Origin: Mycolicibacterium confluentis
GTDB taxonomy: Bacteria > Actinomycetota > Actinomycetes > Mycobacteriales > Mycobacteriaceae
Reading direction: 5' to 3'
Assembly: GCF_010729895.1 (NCBI RefSeq)
Contig: NZ_AP022612.1
Location: 558,001-622,000 of the forward strand
Length of the DNA stretch: 64,000 bases
A program made the translations under genes and the position numbers. A model generated the notes under the pieces. That model saw only the letters and a program-made list of their open reading frames with translations. It was not told the DNA's origin and did no database searches. Within the stretch, counting starts at the first letter, position 1. Every line of letters begins with the position of its first letter. Positions 8,160-61,514 of the stretch are shown piece by piece.

Positions 8160-8205
8160 GTGCGGAATTGCAGGGAAATCGGCTGATTTGCCTGCAATTT
8201 CGCAC
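8160..8205. repeat. Intergenic near-perfect palindrome (possible REP-like element)
   Basis: Outer arms GTGCGGAATTGCAGG (8160-8174) and CCTGCAATTTCGCAC (8191-8205) match at 14 of 15 positions. Inner arms GAAATC/GATTTG leave a 4-nt loop. The outer arm sequence (CGAAATTGCA type) is also found in the palindromes at 57961, 58055 and 59003. It lies between the VWA gene and the arsR-type gene, 49 bp past the stop, so it could also act as a terminator, although no U-tract follows. Confidence 0.7.
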
Positions 8206-38129: not shown

Positions 38130-38192
38130 CGCCGAGTTCGACATGAGGGCTGTGACTTCGGGCCGATCACCACCATGATGTCGAACTGGGCG
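38130..38192. repeat. Palindromic element across the stop codon of nuclease gene A
   Basis: Arms CGCCGAGTTCGACAT (38130-38144) and ATGTCGAACTGGGCG (38178-38192) match at 14 of 15 positions. The 33-nt centre begins GAGGGCTGTGA, the core shared with the palindromes at 39141, 57961 and 58055. The stop codon of the nuclease gene (38167-38169) is inside the element, so the last residues (TPSSTSWW) are encoded by it. Confidence 0.8.
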
Positions 38193-39048
38193 TGTAATTG
38201 CGCGCAGCGAAGGCATCTCTGATCCGGCTCTCGATGAAGCGCGGGCGATGTTCGGCCACCACCCGCAGGTCCAGCCAGCCCTGGCGATCGATCATCTCGT
38301 AGCGGCCGATGTCGTGAACGATCTGTCCTCGATCACTGAAGTGGTGGGCGCCTTCGTAATCCAATCCGACCTTCGGTTCGTCCCAGCCGAGGTCGATGAA
38401 CGCGCTGAACATGCCGTCGCTCACCCTGATCTGAGTTCGCGGTTTCGGCAGTCCAGCGTCGTAGACCACCATTCGAAGCCACGTCTCCTTCGGCGACTGT
38501 GCGCCAGCGTCCATCAGGGCCAGCGCCAGTTGTGCCGCACGGGTGTTCCTGGCGCCGCGATACCGCTCGAAAAGGTGCATCGCATCGGAGCGGGTGACCC
38601 CGGTGGCTGCGGCCAGTGCGTCGAGTCTCATCACCGCGGGGTTGCGCATCAGGTGGCGGGCGAGGTCGAATGCGGTCCGAGCCGGCGAGGTGACGGGCAT
38701 TCCGGCGATCTCCACTATTTCATCTGCCGCGATCCGCTCCTGACGAATCTTGATGCCCGGTCGTGGGCGGCCGTGTTTGGCGATCAGTTCGATCGGATCG
38801 TCGCTTCGGGTCCACTTGGCACCATGCAGGGCCGCCGCAGCCCGGCCGGCAATGATCCCGGTTCTTCCGGTGTGCAGCCAGGCGGCGGCCGTCCGGTTGA
38901 ACAATGTCAGCTCTGCGTCCTTGGGCAGGTAGATACCCGGATGGATCGCGCGGGACGACCAGCGCAGCTTTCCCCTGGTCAGGTCCCCGCTGGCGATCGA
39001 TTCGGCGCCGATAAATGCCTGCCACATGTCGGGGATCGTCGAATTCAC
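38167..39048 (-). CDS. AbiEi-like / DUF559-like nuclease, paralog A
   Basis: 293 residues. The N-terminal ~130 residues have the pattern of the mycobacterial AbiEi-like winged-helix family (GDLTRGKLRWSSRAIHPGIY, AGRAAAALHGAKW, TSPARTAFDLARHL). The C-terminal ~100 residues look like a Vsr/DUF559 PD-(D/E)XK nuclease: a Glu in SPKETWLR, a Gln in RTQI, the Asp in FIDLGW, the DYEGAHH motif and a trailing basic-hydrophobic helix. Paralog B at 58097 is clearly homologous over its whole length. Both genes are flanked by palindromes. No antitoxin-like partner gene is adjacent. Confidence 0.72.
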   Translation of the reverse strand: MNSTIPDMWQAFIGAESIASGDLTRGKLRWSSRAIHPGIYLPKDAELTLFNRTAAAWLHTGRTGIIAGRAAAALHGAKWTRSDDPIELIAKHGRPRPGIKIRQERIAADEIVEIAGMPVTSPARTAFDLARHLMRNPAVMRLDALAAATGVTRSDAMHLFERYRGARNTRAAQLALALMDAGAQSPKETWLRMVVYDAGLPKPRTQIRVSDGMFSAFIDLGWDEPKVGLDYEGAHHFSDRGQIVHDIGRYEMIDRQGWLDLRVVAEHRPRFIESRIRDAFAARNYTPSSTSWW

Positions 39049-39140
39049 GTCTGACGATCCAGCCCGGGAAACGTGCAGCGCCGGTCGCCGCTGTTCATGA
39101 ACTCGCCACTGGGGATGGAGTCGCAGTGGCCCGCGACATC

Positions 39141-39183
39141 GACGTCAGGGCTGTGCCGGCCCATAAATAGCAGCCCTGGCGTC
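39141..39183. repeat. Palindromic element upstream of nuclease gene A
   Basis: GACGTCAGGGCTG (39141-39153) and CAGCCCTGGCGTC (39171-39183), 12 of 13 matching. It contains the AGGGCTGT core in the same place relative to the left arm as the elements at 38130, 57961 and 58055. It lies 92 bp upstream of the start codon of nuclease gene A. Confidence 0.7.
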
Positions 39184-39201
39184 AAACTCGTGGCCCAGCC
39201 T

Positions 39202-56660: not shown

Positions 56661-56678
56661 CCTGAACAATAGTTGAGG
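56661..56678. promoter_or_regulatory. SoxR box
   Basis: CCTGAACAATAGTTGAGG, an 18-bp near-palindrome of the CCTCAAGTTAACTTGAGG type, immediately upstream of soxR and 27 bp before arcA. Confidence 0.75.
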
Positions 56679-56704
56679 TGGCTGTTGGGGTTACGGTTCT
56701 ACAT

Positions 56705-57913
56705 GTGAGTGCTGTGACTCTGGGCGCCAATTCCGAGGTCGGGACCCTGCGCTCGGTGATCCTGCATCGGCCCGGCGCCGAACTGCAGAGGCTGACACCG
56801 CGCAACAACGACAAACTTCTCTTCGACGGCCTGCCATGGGTCTCTCGGGCTCAGGACGAGCACGACGCCTTCGCCGAAGTGCTGCGCTCCCGCGGAGTCG
56901 AGGTCCTGCTCCTCGCGGATCTGCTCGGTGAGGCTCTGGCCAGCGGGGCGGCCCGAATGCACGGCATCTCCGCGGCCGTGGACTCGCGTCGGCTGGGGTT
57001 GCCCCTGGCCCAAGAACTTTCGGCGTACCTGCGCAGCCTGGAACCGACGGCGCTGGCGCACGTGCTGATGGCCGGCATGACGTTCACCGAGCTGCCGCTC
57101 GCGCAGAACGAACTCTCGCTGGTGCGCCGCATGCATCACGGCGGCGATTTCGTGATCGAACCGCTGCCCAACCTGCTGTTCACTCGCGACTCGTCATTCT
57201 GGATCGGGCCGCGCGTGGCGATCACGTCGCTGGCGCTGCCCGCCCGCATCCGCGAGACGTCGCTGACCGATCTGATTTATGCGCACCATCCCCGTTTCCT
57301 CGGTGTGCGGCGAGCCTACGAGTCGCGGTCCGCCCCGGTCGAGGGTGGCGATGTGCTGCTCTTGGCTCCAGGTGTCGTGGCCGTCGGGGTGGGGGAGCGG
57401 ACGACGCCGGCCGGGGCGGAGGCCCTGGCGCGCAGCCTGTTCGACGATGACCTGGCGCACACGGTGCTGGCGGTGCCGATCGCTCAGGAGCGCGCGCAGA
57501 TGCACCTGGACACCGTGTGCACCATGGTCGACGTCGACGCCGTCGTGATGTACCCGAACGTCGTCGACTCGTTGTCCGCCTTCACTATTCGCCGTCTTGG
57601 CGACGGCGGCGTGCAGATCGCGGACGCGGCCCCATTCGTGGAGGCCGCGGCGGCGGCCATGGGGATCGACAAGTTGCGGGTGATCGCCACGGGCTTGGAC
57701 CCGGTGACCGCCGAGCGTGAGCAGTGGGATGACGGCAACAACACCCTGGCGGTGGCCCCCGGTGTGGTGGTCGCCTACGAGCGCAACTCCGAAACCAATG
57801 CGCGGCTTGAGGATTCGGGGATCGAGGTGCTGCGAATCTCGGCCTCCGAGCTGGGGACGGGGCGTGGAGGCCCGCGCTGTATGTCGTGTCCGGCGGCGCG
57901 CGATCCGCTGTAG
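56705..57913 (+). CDS. arcA: Arginine deiminase
   Basis: 402 residues from GTG 56705, equal in length to M. tuberculosis ArcA. Converts arginine to citrulline and ammonia. Active-site motifs: [10 protein letters not shown] region, [21 protein letters not shown] (catalytic His/Asp) and the nucleophilic Cys in [15 protein letters not shown] -10-like TACGGT lies seven bases upstream, so the transcript is probably leaderless; SoxR may influence it because its box is next door. Confidence 0.95.
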
Positions 57914-57960
57914 TTGCTCGTGCTCCCCTTCGGCGCGAGATTGCGTGTCCTGCCTGGTCG

Positions 57961-58017
57961 CGAGATTGCATGTAGGGCTGTAGATCGGCGCCCGCGACGA
58001 CCCTGGGTGCAATCTCG
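57961..58017. repeat. 57-bp palindromic element, 3' side of nuclease gene B, copy 1
   Basis: Arms CGAGATTGCA (57961-57970) and TGCAATCTCG (58008-58017) are perfect. The centre starts TGTAGGGCTGTAGATCGGCG and contains a second pairing AGGG/CCCT. A partial left arm (CGAGATTGCG) also occurs at 57936. Confidence 0.85.
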
Positions 58018-58054
58018 GTGGGGTGGGCAGCGCCGGCCTTGTATGCCATTGTCG

Positions 58055-58111
58055 CGAGATTGCATTCAGGGCTGTTGATCGGCCCCCGCGACGACCCTAG
58101 GCGCAATCTGG
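58055..58111. repeat. 57-bp palindromic element across the stop codon of nuclease gene B, copy 2
   Basis: Left arm CGAGATTGCA (58055-58064), right arm degenerate (GCAATCT at 58103-58109). The centre TTCAGGGCTGTTGATCGGCC is nearly the same as copy 1. The stop codon of the nuclease gene (TAG on the minus strand, 58097-58099) is inside it, and the last residues (RPDCA) are encoded by the right arm. Confidence 0.85.
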
Positions 58112-58966
58112 CCGAACTGTGCCCCGTAATGCAATGCCCCGCAATCGAAACGCCTCGTTCACCCGGCGCACGATGAACTTCCTGCTGTGCTCGGCAACGA
58201 CGTGCCTGACGATCCACCCCTGACCGGCCACCAATTCGTTGCGGCCGATGTCGTGCACGAAGCGTGAGCGATCAGAGAAATGCTTTTCGCCGTCATAGTC
58301 GCAACCGATCATCTCGTCGTCCCAGCCCATGTCGAGATAGGCCGTGCTGAACCCGTCGGTGACCGGGATCTGCGTGCGCGGGCGTGGGAAGCCCGCATCC
58401 GTCAGGACCAGCCGAAGCCAGCTCTCCCTGGGCGACTGCGCGCCGGCATCCAAGAGCGGCGCCACATCTCGTGCCTGCGCCACTCCGCGCGCACCGGGAT
58501 ACAGCTCCGCCAGGTCGAGCACCGACTCCGACTCTATTCCGGTCGCTCGCGCCAACGCGTCGAGATGTGCGACGGCGGGGTCACGAGTCAGGTGCCGCGC
58601 CAGGTCCAACGCCGTTCTAGTCGGCGATGTGACGTACAGGCCCCGGACCCTGACGATTTCGTCGAACGAGAACCGCTCGTTGCGGGCGATGATGCCCGGC
58701 GGCGGGCGGGGGCAATGCCACAGCAGTTCGATGGGAATGTCGCTGTCGATCCACAACGCACCGTGCAACGCTGCCGCGGCGCGACCGGCGATGATCGCTC
58801 GCCGTCCGGACCACAGCCACGCGGCCTTCGTGCGCATCCACAGCGACGCTCGGGCGTCCTTGTGCACGTAAACGTTGGGCAAGATCGCGCGGTAATTCCA
58901 GCGCAGCTGAGCGCGGGTCAGCGCGCCGCTTCTGAGGGCTTCTGTGCCGAGGAATGGACTGTCCAT
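58097..58966 (-). CDS. AbiEi-like / DUF559-like nuclease, paralog B
   Basis: 289 residues, homologous to paralog A (38167) from SGALTRAQLRWNYRAILPNVY to the end. The N-terminal winged-helix AbiEi-like region has AGRAAAALHGALW and TSPTRTALDLARHL. The nuclease-like region has SPRESWLR (Glu), RTQI, YLDMGWDD (Asp) and CDYDGEKH. The C-terminal helix and the stop codon come from a palindromic repeat. Palindromes flank both ends. It lies between arcA and pmt, a slot empty in M. tuberculosis. Confidence 0.72.
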   Translation of the reverse strand: MDSPFLGTEALRSGALTRAQLRWNYRAILPNVYVHKDARASLWMRTKAAWLWSGRRAIIAGRAAAALHGALWIDSDIPIELLWHCPRPPPGIIARNERFSFDEIVRVRGLYVTSPTRTALDLARHLTRDPAVAHLDALARATGIESESVLDLAELYPGARGVAQARDVAPLLDAGAQSPRESWLRLVLTDAGFPRPRTQIPVTDGFSTAYLDMGWDDEMIGCDYDGEKHFSDRSRFVHDIGRNELVAGQGWIVRHVVAEHSRKFIVRRVNEAFRLRGIALRGTVRPDCA

Positions 58967-59002
58967 GGGGGCATGTTCAGCGGCGAAGGTGACACGCCCC
59001 GC

Positions 59003-59059
59003 CGAAATTGCACGGAGGGCGGTGGGATCTGTGGATCAACGACCGTCTGTGCAATTTCG
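59003..59059. repeat. 57-bp palindromic element upstream of nuclease gene B
   Basis: Perfect arms CGAAATTGCAC (59003-59013) and GTGCAATTTCG (59049-59059), outer length 57 bp as in the two copies on the 3' side. The centre begins GGAGGGCGGT, a variant of the AGGGCTGT core. It lies 36 bp before the gene B start. Confidence 0.8.
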
Positions 59060-59107: not shown

Positions 59108-60652
59108 CTATCGCCAGGACGGCAACCAGATCTCCATATTCCAGGTGTGCTGGGAGATCGGCATTCCGGTCAGCACCGGGAACAACCACACGAAGTTCGT
59201 GATCACCACCGCGAGGTAGAGACACACCACGATCGCGCCAAGCGTGCGGCGCTCGGGGTCACGCGTCGGTTTGTACAGGATGTCGCCGCATATCAGGGCT
59301 ATCGCCATCACCAGGAACGGCGCCATGGTCGCGGCGTAGAAGAAGTACATCTGCCGGTCGATGTCGGCGAACCACGGCAACCAACCGGCGCAGTACCCCA
59401 CCAGAACGACCGCGTAGCGCCAATCACGCCGGATGAACGCCCGCCACACCGCGTAGACGAGCACGGGCACCGCCAGCCACCACATGGCTGGCGTGCCGAC
59501 CAGCATGACCGCCTTGACGCACGAGGCCGCGCCGCACCCCGGCACGTTGTCCTGGTCGATCGCGTACAGCACGGGCCGCAGCGACATGGGCCACGTCCAC
59601 GGCTTGGACTCCCACGGATGGTGATTGCCGCCGGCGTTGGTCAATCCGGAATGGAACTCGTAGGCCTTGAAGGTGTAGTGCCACAACGATCGGATCGCAT
59701 CGGGTGGCTGGAACCAGGCGCGCTCGCCGATGGTTCGGCCCGCCTCGTAGCGGTTGACGCCGGTCTCGGATGCGAACCATGCCCAGTACGACGACAGGTA
59801 CACCAACAGTGGGATGACGCCCATCGCCCAGGCGGTCGGACCGAGGTCCCGACGCACGGTTCCCAGCCATGGCCGTCCCACCCGGTACTGCCGGCGCGCG
59901 GCCACGTCGAAGGCCAGCGACATCAACCCGAAGAAGAGCACGAAGTACAGGCCCGACCACTTGGTGGCGCACGCCAACCCGAGCAGCACGCCTGCACCGA
60001 AACGCCACCACCGCACACCCAGGCGCGGCCCCCACGGCGTCTCGCCGATCCGCCCGTCGAGCAGCACGGTGTGCATGCGCTCACGGACCTGATCCCGGTC
60101 GACGATGAGCGCCCCGAACGCCGCCACCACGAAAGTCACCAGCACGCCGTCGAGCAGAGCCGTGCGCGACGTCACGAAGGACACGCTCTCGACCACCATG
60201 AGCAGTCCGGCGATGCCGCCGATCAGTGTCGACCGGGTGATGCGCCGGACTATCCGCGCGACGAGCACGACCGTGATGACGCCGAGCAGCGCCATGCTGA
60301 ACCGCCAGCCCAGCCCGCTGTAGCCGAAGATCGCCTCACCGACGGCGATCAACTGCTTGCCCACGGGCGGATGAACGACCAGGCCGAAGCCGGGGTTGTC
60401 CTCGACACCGTTGTTGTGCAGCATCTGCCAGGCCTGCGGCGCGTAGTGCTTCTCGTCGAAGATCGGCGTGCCGGCATCGGTCGGCGACCACACGTTGAGG
60501 AACCTGCTGGTGGCGGCCAACCCGGCGATCACGCCGGTCATGGCCCAGCCCTGGGCCCTGTCGAGGGGCCCGAAGTCGGCCACGGGGACAAGTGGGCCGG
60601 GACTGATCACGGGTACGGCGCGCTCCGGCAGGACGGGAGTTGGAGCGGTCAT
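59108..60652 (-). CDS. pmt: Protein O-mannosyltransferase
   Basis: 514 residues from ATG 60652. About ten membrane helices; the first extracytoplasmic loop has the DEKHYAPQAWQM motif with the catalytic Asp-Glu pair, typical of GT39 enzymes. Transfers mannose from polyprenol-phosphate-mannose to Ser/Thr of secreted proteins during Sec export. Corresponds to Rv1002c and is divergent from rsmI. A longer open frame upstream is ignored because the family start is here. Confidence 0.93.
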   Translation of the reverse strand: MTAPTPVLPERAVPVISPGPLVPVADFGPLDRAQGWAMTGVIAGLAATSRFLNVWSPTDAGTPIFDEKHYAPQAWQMLHNNGVEDNPGFGLVVHPPVGKQLIAVGEAIFGYSGLGWRFSMALLGVITVVLVARIVRRITRSTLIGGIAGLLMVVESVSFVTSRTALLDGVLVTFVVAAFGALIVDRDQVRERMHTVLLDGRIGETPWGPRLGVRWWRFGAGVLLGLACATKWSGLYFVLFFGLMSLAFDVAARRQYRVGRPWLGTVRRDLGPTAWAMGVIPLLVYLSSYWAWFASETGVNRYEAGRTIGERAWFQPPDAIRSLWHYTFKAYEFHSGLTNAGGNHHPWESKPWTWPMSLRPVLYAIDQDNVPGCGAASCVKAVMLVGTPAMWWLAVPVLVYAVWRAFIRRDWRYAVVLVGYCAGWLPWFADIDRQMYFFYAATMAPFLVMAIALICGDILYKPTRDPERRTLGAIVVCLYLAVVITNFVWLFPVLTGMPISQHTWNMEIWLPSWR

Positions 60653-60677
60653 CAGAGACGATCGTAGGCTGTGGGGC

Positions 60678-61514
60678 ATGACTGGCGGCCGACTGTTGCT
60701 GGCTGCCACGCCGTTGGGGCAGCCCGGCGATGCGTCGGCACGCCTGATTGAAGCTCTCGGATCGGCCGACATCGTCGCCGCTGAAGACACCAGGCGCGTG
60801 CGCTCACTGGCGCAGTCGCTGGGCGTGCACATCAGCGGACGCGTGGTCAGCCTGTTCGACCAGAACGAGAGCACACGCGTTCCCATGCTGGTGGCCGAAC
60901 TGGAGGCCGGGGCGACGGTGCTGGCCGTCACCGACGCCGGCATGCCCTCGATCAGCGATCCCGGCTACCGTCTGGTGGCCGCCTGCGTGGCAGCCGACCT
61001 GCCGCTGACCTGCCTGCCCGGCCCGTCGGCGGTGACAACCGCGCTGACGGTCTCGGGCCTGGCCGCCGACCGGTTCTGCTTCGAGGGCTTTGCCCCGCGT
61101 AGGTCGGGCCAACGCCGCACGTGGCTGGCCTCACTGGCGAACGAACTGCGCACGTGCGTGTTCTTCGAGTCGCCACGCCGACTGGCCGAATGCCTGAGCG
61201 ACGCCGTGGCCGAACTGGGCCCAGACCGCCGCGCGGCGGTGTGTCGCGAGTTGACCAAGACCCACGAGGAAGTGGTGCGCGGGACGCTGGCCGAACTGGC
61301 CGACTGGGCCGCCGACGGAGTGCTCGGCGAGATCACCGTCGTCCTGGCGGGGGCGACGCCCGTGGCCGACATCGACACCCTGGTCGCCGAGGTGGCCGAA
61401 CTGGCTGAGGCGGGCATGCGCGTCAAGGACGCGTGCCAGCAGGTGGTGTCCGCGCATCCCGGAGCGCCATCCCGCCGTGAGCTCTACGACGCGGTGCTGC
61501 GGTCACGGGAGTGA
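60678..61514 (+). CDS. rsmI: 16S rRNA 2'-O-ribose methyltransferase RsmI
   Basis: 278 residues from ATG 60678. Tetrapyrrole-methylase fold: LLLAATPLGQPGDAS, AAEDTRRVRSL, VTDAGMPSISDPGYRLV and LPGPSAVTTALTVSGL are the SAM-binding landmarks. Methylates C1402 of 16S rRNA with RsmH. A TAGGCT -10-like box ends seven bases before the ATG, so a leaderless mRNA is likely. The 3' end overlaps convergent pabB by 12 bp. Confidence 0.94.
   Translation: MTGGRLLLAATPLGQPGDASARLIEALGSADIVAAEDTRRVRSLAQSLGVHISGRVVSLFDQNESTRVPMLVAELEAGATVLAVTDAGMPSISDPGYRLVAACVAADLPLTCLPGPSAVTTALTVSGLAADRFCFEGFAPRRSGQRRTWLASLANELRTCVFFESPRRLAECLSDAVAELGPDRRAAVCRELTKTHEEVVRGTLAELADWAADGVLGEITVVLAGATPVADIDTLVAEVAELAEAGMRVKDACQQVVSAHPGAPSRRELYDAVLRSRE

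Follow-up and report, generated by a model that had tools for sequence, protein, structure and literature searches.

Putative nuclease genes accompanied by their own palindromes in Mycolicibacterium confluentis and related bacteria

The 64,000-nucleotide (nt) stretch of the Mycolicibacterium confluentis genome analyzed here (contig NZ_AP022612.1, positions 558,001 to 622,000; the window) carries gene B, situated with three 57-nt palindromes between neighbours which we take to be arcA and pmt. Comparison of gene B with its homologues suggests that these bacteria harbour a system of repeats and nucleases which has so far gone unrecognised. We consider it reasonably probable that this AbiEi-Vsr/EDxHD nuclease is paired with its own palindrome of approximately 57-63 nt, which it would bind and the copying of which it would promote, in a manner resembling REPIN-RAYT systems (repetitive extragenic palindromes, REPs, with the Y1 transposase RAYT) but with an unrelated enzyme.

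Shared flank repeats in the nuclease family

The family set consisted of 103 genes, 13 from M. confluentis itself and 90 among the matches listed, from 26 genomes of the same genus. The upstream and downstream flanks of each gene were compared by local alignment, with a score of at least 20 taken as a pass and 2,060 dinucleotide shuffles as the null. A flank repeat at this level was found in 59 of the 103 genes, against 0.19% of the shuffles; the repeats were gene-specific and mostly 57-63 nt in length. Flank repeats were also present in 44 of 80 named mycobacterial loci and 11 of 25 loci from other families of the order (null 0.37% of mononucleotide shuffles), counts which omit the same-genus loci L291-L293 and in which the named loci may overlap genomes of the 103-gene set (L and G numbers denote loci and genomes). 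At one locus from another family of the order (L308), a gene lies between palindromes of 58-62 nt; the protein it encodes has 36% identity to the nearest query.

An arm profile was derived from 43 pairs picked for alignable palindromes, a selection that favours high identity. Between the flanking copies the outer positions 1-10 and inner positions 14-19 were conserved (0.77-0.92 and 0.73-0.91, respectively), positions 11-13 were less conserved (0.63-0.70) and the centre, positions 21-28, was not (0.37-0.50). A rule that the two flanking copies are direct repeats without exception was dropped. At loci L129, L056, L117 and L009 the cognate palindrome was tandem or nested, either in one flank of the gene or in both. 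A literature search covering few subscription papers showed, among the matches listed, no publication that deals with such repeats or with palindromes at DUF559 genes; those combining DUF559 and palindromes look unrelated, judging by their abstracts.

Co-divergence of palindrome and protein

Sixty-five of the 103 genes (flank score of at least 17, no internal stop, 255-330 amino acids) were compared as 2,080 pairs, and palindrome similarity was found to track protein identity. At a score of 25 the palindrome was shared by none of the 1,594 pairs with less than 50% protein identity and by 22 of the 25 pairs with at least 65%. All seven pairs which occupy different loci and have at least 65% identity share a palindrome at a score of 22, so that a gene and its palindrome apparently moved as a unit. 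The correlation with the palindrome was 0.31-0.35 for the DNA-binding half versus 0.20-0.21 for the nuclease domain. With overall identity removed, residues 17-26 tracked the palindrome best (r 0.178, compared with a 95% level of 0.141 and a maximum of 0.176 in 200 permutations), followed by residues 129-138 (r 0.162). Residues 17-26 span helix 18-24 of the winged-helix fold, which is the recognition helix predicted from the model.

Dispersed palindromes

Copies of the GAGCAGACRCAAA palindrome in 20 genomes numbered 69 in G064, 29 in G029, 23 in G023, 22 in G058, 19 in G051, 14 in G081, 13 in G007, 8 in G100, 3 in G037, 2 in M. confluentis and one each in G039, G069 and G073; gene-adjacent copies are included, in G069 probably as the sole copy. 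The other seven genomes had none, as did the reversed-pattern control. Nucleases of the GAGCAGACRCAAA subfamily (about 56% identity or more) occur in 13 of the 20 genomes, and copies were present in 12 of these 13 versus one of the seven others (one-sided Fisher test, approximately 0.001, not corrected for phylogeny). The palindrome lies on both sides of 13 of the 14 subfamily genes, the fourteenth beginning 261 bases from a contig end, and flanks none of the 12 homologues at 46-52% identity. In the draft assembly of G051 a nuclease matching its copies was not found.

Half-sites of a second type, GAAATTGCATTCCNGCAG with one mismatch allowed, numbered 97 in G037, 54 in G099, 37 in G027, 19 in G013, 7 in G039, 5 in G081 and 2 in G082, with none in five others. 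Nucleases with GAAATTGCATTCCNGCAG arms were seen in G037, G013, G039 and G081; G027 and G099 were outside that look. One genome from another taxonomic family contains 30 half-sites of a third palindrome family together with its gene unit; six other genomes had no half-sites of this family. In several genomes solo copies far outnumber matching genes. Fourteen GAGCAGACRCAAA copies of G081 were read, including one beside the nuclease; for nine of them the long frames on the two sides converge, and most are about 30 nt or less from a stop codon.

Eleven of the G081 sites could be located orthologously in G039 (81-95% identity). One is empty in G039 and ten hold a palindrome; by eye, six of these ten have the same centre while four differ in both arms and centre. 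The four differing G039 palindromes resemble the flanks of the G039 nuclease, one arm matching letter for letter (also by eye). No target-site duplication was recognisable at the single empty site, which belongs to a palindrome family different from that of B and does not lie at arcA-pmt.

The fit of dispersed copies to the resident nuclease was assessed for 48 copies from eight genomes. The mean number of better-fitting foreign flanks was 1.27 versus 5.24 with permuted labels (one of 5,000 permutations being as low), and 21 of the 48 fitted the resident nuclease best or tied, a signal to which shared ancestry contributes. The set comprises 13 of 14 copies from G081, 7 of 8 from G100 and one of two from M. 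confluentis (those omitted adjoin a nuclease), 10 of 29 from G029, 4 of 69 from G064 (among the matches listed), 3 from G037, 1 from G073 and 9 from G039, where one of ten copies was missed and the L411 entry is a different copy nearby. Two nucleases were entered with a single flank copy, and copies of G023, G051 and G058 were left out; the 13 copies of G007 were left out because its nuclease has no visible flanking palindrome.

Gene B, paralogue A and the palindromes of the window

The features of the window are collected in Table 1. The first-pass annotation had described three 57-nt elements at gene B, the second of which supplies the last codons and stop of the gene. Coordinates and complementarity bear this out, with 18, 17 and 19 of 28 half-columns complementary in the palindromes at 57961, 58055 and 59003, respectively. 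The second palindrome has an imperfect end (...CAATCTGG), and its right arm holds the last codons of B and the TAG. The motif CGARATTGCA occurs exactly six times in the window, five times at the locus of B and once at 8193. Palindromy alone was rejected as evidence since it is at chance level: 73 spans of 57 nt in the window have at least eight of ten complementary outer bases, versus 66 expected from shuffling.

The annotation had further argued that two unlinked paralogues with the same arrangement make chance unlikely. The rare feature is a repeat shared by both flanks of a single gene; B has it with a score of 20 (reached by 0.19% of shuffles over the family), and A, at 14, is below the pass mark. 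A has the layout of B with different arms, its 63-nt palindrome likewise covering the stop; the two genes are approximately 19 kb apart, and so are not strictly unlinked. At an expect value of 0.001 the M. confluentis genome (one contig, 5.88 Mb) contains 13 homologues including A and B. Eight of them have a flank repeat scoring at least 20, each with distinct arms; those which fail, besides A, are L011 (10) and L013-L015 (13, 13 and 14).

Counted genome-wide, the element of B recurs beyond the flanks as one solo copy with exact arms (genome position 492,077, with frames converging on it from both sides), and the family is not enriched: its core pattern gave 10 matches versus 24 for the reversed control in 31 genomes. 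REP-like abundance of this family was rejected on these counts. B is a low-copy member, since the palindromes found for it are the flanking copies and the one exact solo copy. None of the three palindromes of B has a T run beside it in the sequence, the stem plus T run of an intrinsic terminator thus being absent; a terminator scan of the interval also gave none, although it allows loops of 3-8 nt, has 0.5 hits expected by chance and says little. The best match to a known RNA family was a microRNA below threshold (E 0.35). Paralogue L012, the flanks of which resemble the solo palindrome listed in Table 1, has an internal TGA.

Table 1. Features of the window discussed in the text
Feature	Position	Strand	Remarks
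Solo palindrome	8162-8203		Resembles palindrome flanking paralogue L012 of the same genome
63-nt cognate palindrome of A	38130-38192		Over the stop of A
Gene A	38167-39048	minus	Paralogue of B (56% identity)
Palindrome with related arms	39127-39197		Upstream of A
arcA-like gene	56678-57913	plus	Left neighbour of B
Half-site CGAGATTGCG, one mismatch	57936-57945	plus	Possibly a decayed copy
57-nt cognate palindrome	57961-58017		Downstream of B, farther of two
57-nt cognate palindrome	58055-58111		Downstream; overlaps final codons and stop of B
Gene B	58097-58966	minus	289-amino-acid protein; predicted AbiEi-like half (~1-173) and Vsr/EDxHD-type endonuclease domain (~178-278)
57-nt cognate palindrome	59003-59059		Upstream of B; DnaA-box-like TGTGGATCA inside at 59030-59038
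pmt-like gene	59108-60943	minus	Right neighbour of B

The arcA-pmt interval in related genomes

arcA was found in 105 of 118 genomes and 90 loci were examined; the tree covers 77 of the 90 and, being based on short protein pieces, is only indicative. The nuclease gene is present at 46 of the 90 loci, and nine could not be judged. Both neighbours could be seen at 35 gene-less loci. A palindrome is kept in 17 of these according to the script (L046 and L193 are doubtful by eye), remnants or other sequence occur in seven, a short gap in nine (two of which, L178 and L185, labelled none by the script, have a half-site) and another gene or unrecognised sequence in two. At L038 (G009) an unrelated gene, judged by eye to be presumably that of a luciferase-like oxidoreductase, fills the interval in place of the nuclease.

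Residence of the nuclease at arcA-pmt is old, because 46 of the 90 loci carry it, and loss appears repeated, because gene-less states sit inside gene-bearing clades of the tree. The first-pass suggestion of a repeat-nuclease unit inserted between arcA and pmt is therefore supported as to the unit but not as to a recent insertion. The same annotation had held that its reading would fall if the palindromes were ordinary terminators conserved where the gene is absent. Their retention in 17 of the 35 gene-less intervals goes half way towards this. The retained palindromes, however, are those of several nuclease families, two of which are dispersed elsewhere in relatives, a pattern that ordinary conserved terminators do not explain. 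Many arm types occur at arcA-pmt, and some have their nuclease elsewhere, for example GAAATTGCATTCCAGCAG in G037.

Upstream regions

The PafBC motif has the consensus tTGTCRgtg, 8 nt, TannnT (PMC5656591). A PafBC-type motif with a score of at least 9 was found in 51 of 103 upstream regions (null 1.1%; downstream control, one of 102). In all 51 the motif is placed at -29 or -30 relative to the start codon, a spacing that implies transcripts without a leader. B and A score below 9. As far as promoter sequences indicate, DNA damage probably induces expression of about half of the family via PafBC. The DnaA-box-like motif TTATCCACA was present with at most one mismatch upstream of 46 of the 103 genes, within the upstream palindrome or next to it, the controls giving none in 103 downstream regions, 2 inside genes and 3 far upstream; with a looser form, 24 of 38 matches lie at -71 to -74. 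The upstream palindrome copy is usually located just ahead of the promoter.

Predicted protein of gene B

Gene B encodes a probable DNA-cutting enzyme. In the predicted structure, residues 1-173 form an AbiEi-like DNA-binding fold and residues 178-278 a Vsr/EDxHD-like fold, so that the two-domain fold of AbiEi and the EDxHD/Vsr-like catalytic fold are both present in the model. Structure comparison of the model gave AbiEi and, more weakly, Rv2827c as matches to the N-terminal fold, and the homing endonuclease I-Bth0305I as the closest catalytic fold. Pfam returned nothing but MTES_1575, below threshold, and no Y1 HUH tyrosine transposase; NCBIfam gave no match, the PDB sequence search three matches of which none was significant, and Foldseek nothing at E <= 0.001. 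No nucleotidyltransferase toxin gene adjoins B. A phage search with the nuclease gave no match, and 72,556 plasmid records yielded eight distant partial matches, none covering 80% of the query; carriage by phages or plasmids is thus unsupported.

Proposed mechanism and alternative explanations

Under the proposed pairing, there would usually be one nuclease gene per palindrome type per genome, each with its own palindrome of about 57-63 nt. The AbiEi-like half, either dimeric or as two monomers, would bind the palindrome, and the Vsr/EDxHD half would nick or cut there or at a partner site. Repair may then transfer palindrome sequence from site to site, which would convert gene-adjacent and dispersed copies to a single type and occasionally create additional ones. 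The upstream copy is probably also autoregulatory, like AbiEi operators, and loss of the gene may leave one palindrome, the pattern seen at arcA-pmt. More tentatively, and with some doubt on our part, there may be an independent second REP-like system across the order, in which an AbiEi-Vsr nuclease, often damage-induced, rewrites private palindromes in place while specificity and sites co-diverge.

Several other explanations were weighed. The palindromes might be the targets of a free-standing homing endonuclease gene, which would cut incoming or sister DNA at a solo palindrome, the whole unit then being copied in, and would not itself disperse palindromes. Homing insertion normally destroys the target, whereas here targets persist on both sides of the gene, and in several genomes solo copies greatly exceed matching genes; we regard this as unlikely, despite the alternation of gene and solo states at arcA-pmt, the units with similar arms at different loci and the modelled similarity to I-Bth0305I, an enzyme that forms a dimer on its target of nearly 60 bp (PMC3943268). 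Quite unlikely in our estimation is a role as operator only, in which the palindromes are AbiEi-type autoregulatory sites, the downstream copy forms a repression loop or terminates transcription, solo copies remain from lost genes and the nuclease has an unrelated role, for instance in defence or repair. According to PMC7319586, the AbiEi site consists of two inverted repeats of 23 bp with 3 bp between them, and that of Rv2827c, located ahead of the Rv2827c gene itself, of paired 23-bp repeats with a spacing of 13 bp (59 bp in all); together with the modelled N-terminal fold and the position of the upstream copy this argues for an operator. It leaves unexplained the tens of dispersed copies in genomes where the matching nucleases number one or two, the whole-palindrome differences at orthologous sites and the copies on either side of the gene across the order.

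That the palindromes are ordinary bidirectional terminators between converging genes, hairpins unconnected to the nuclease, is very improbable. The converging frames around nine of the 14 G081 copies, mostly near a stop codon, would suit such a function, as would the palindromes often retained in gene-less arcA-pmt intervals. Against it stand the missing T runs at B, arms which are specific to the adjoining nuclease and track its sequence, and the copy located upstream in genes with shared repeats, where terminator use is not obvious.

To our knowledge, Y1 transposases are the one type of enzyme with which REP-like elements are linked. If the pairing of nuclease and palindrome is correct, the arrangement of a repeat with a domesticated enzyme would have evolved more than once, here with a Vsr/EDxHD nuclease, and a function would be suggested for a large class of unassigned AbiEi/Vsr-like actinobacterial genes. 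It would offer many natural protein-target pairs for studying recognition of DNA sites of about 57 nt, and the upkeep of likeness among dispersed repeats would become testable by removal of a single gene.

Comparison with known systems

The likeness to REPIN-RAYT systems lies in a chromosomal enzyme gene beside palindromes, short dispersed palindromes that match these in type, a long stay at the locus and near absence from plasmids (RAYT traits from PMC8049555). Dispersed-type palindromes flank 13 of the 14 GAGCAGACRCAAA-subfamily genes, and tens of copies occur in two families in some relatives, though not in the family of B or in M. confluentis itself. The differences are that the enzyme is an AbiEi-like plus Vsr/EDxHD nuclease and not a Y1 HUH transposase, that copies occur in both flanks of the gene, that the arms consist of two blocks around a free centre, that there is a promoter motif of the damage type, and that copy numbers run from 1-2 to 69 against 69-235 REPINs in E. 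coli (same source).

Unlike I-Bth0305I, the nuclease is not intronic, has an AbiEi-like DNA-binding half, keeps its target on both sides and occurs as several paralogues in a genome, whose targets differ. It is distinguished from the type IV antitoxins AbiEi and Rv2827c by the lack of a toxin gene next to B, the fused nuclease, the second palindrome downstream and the dispersed copies, and from the Vsr mismatch endonuclease and MTES_1575/DUF559-type proteins by the additional DNA-binding half and the cognate palindromes.
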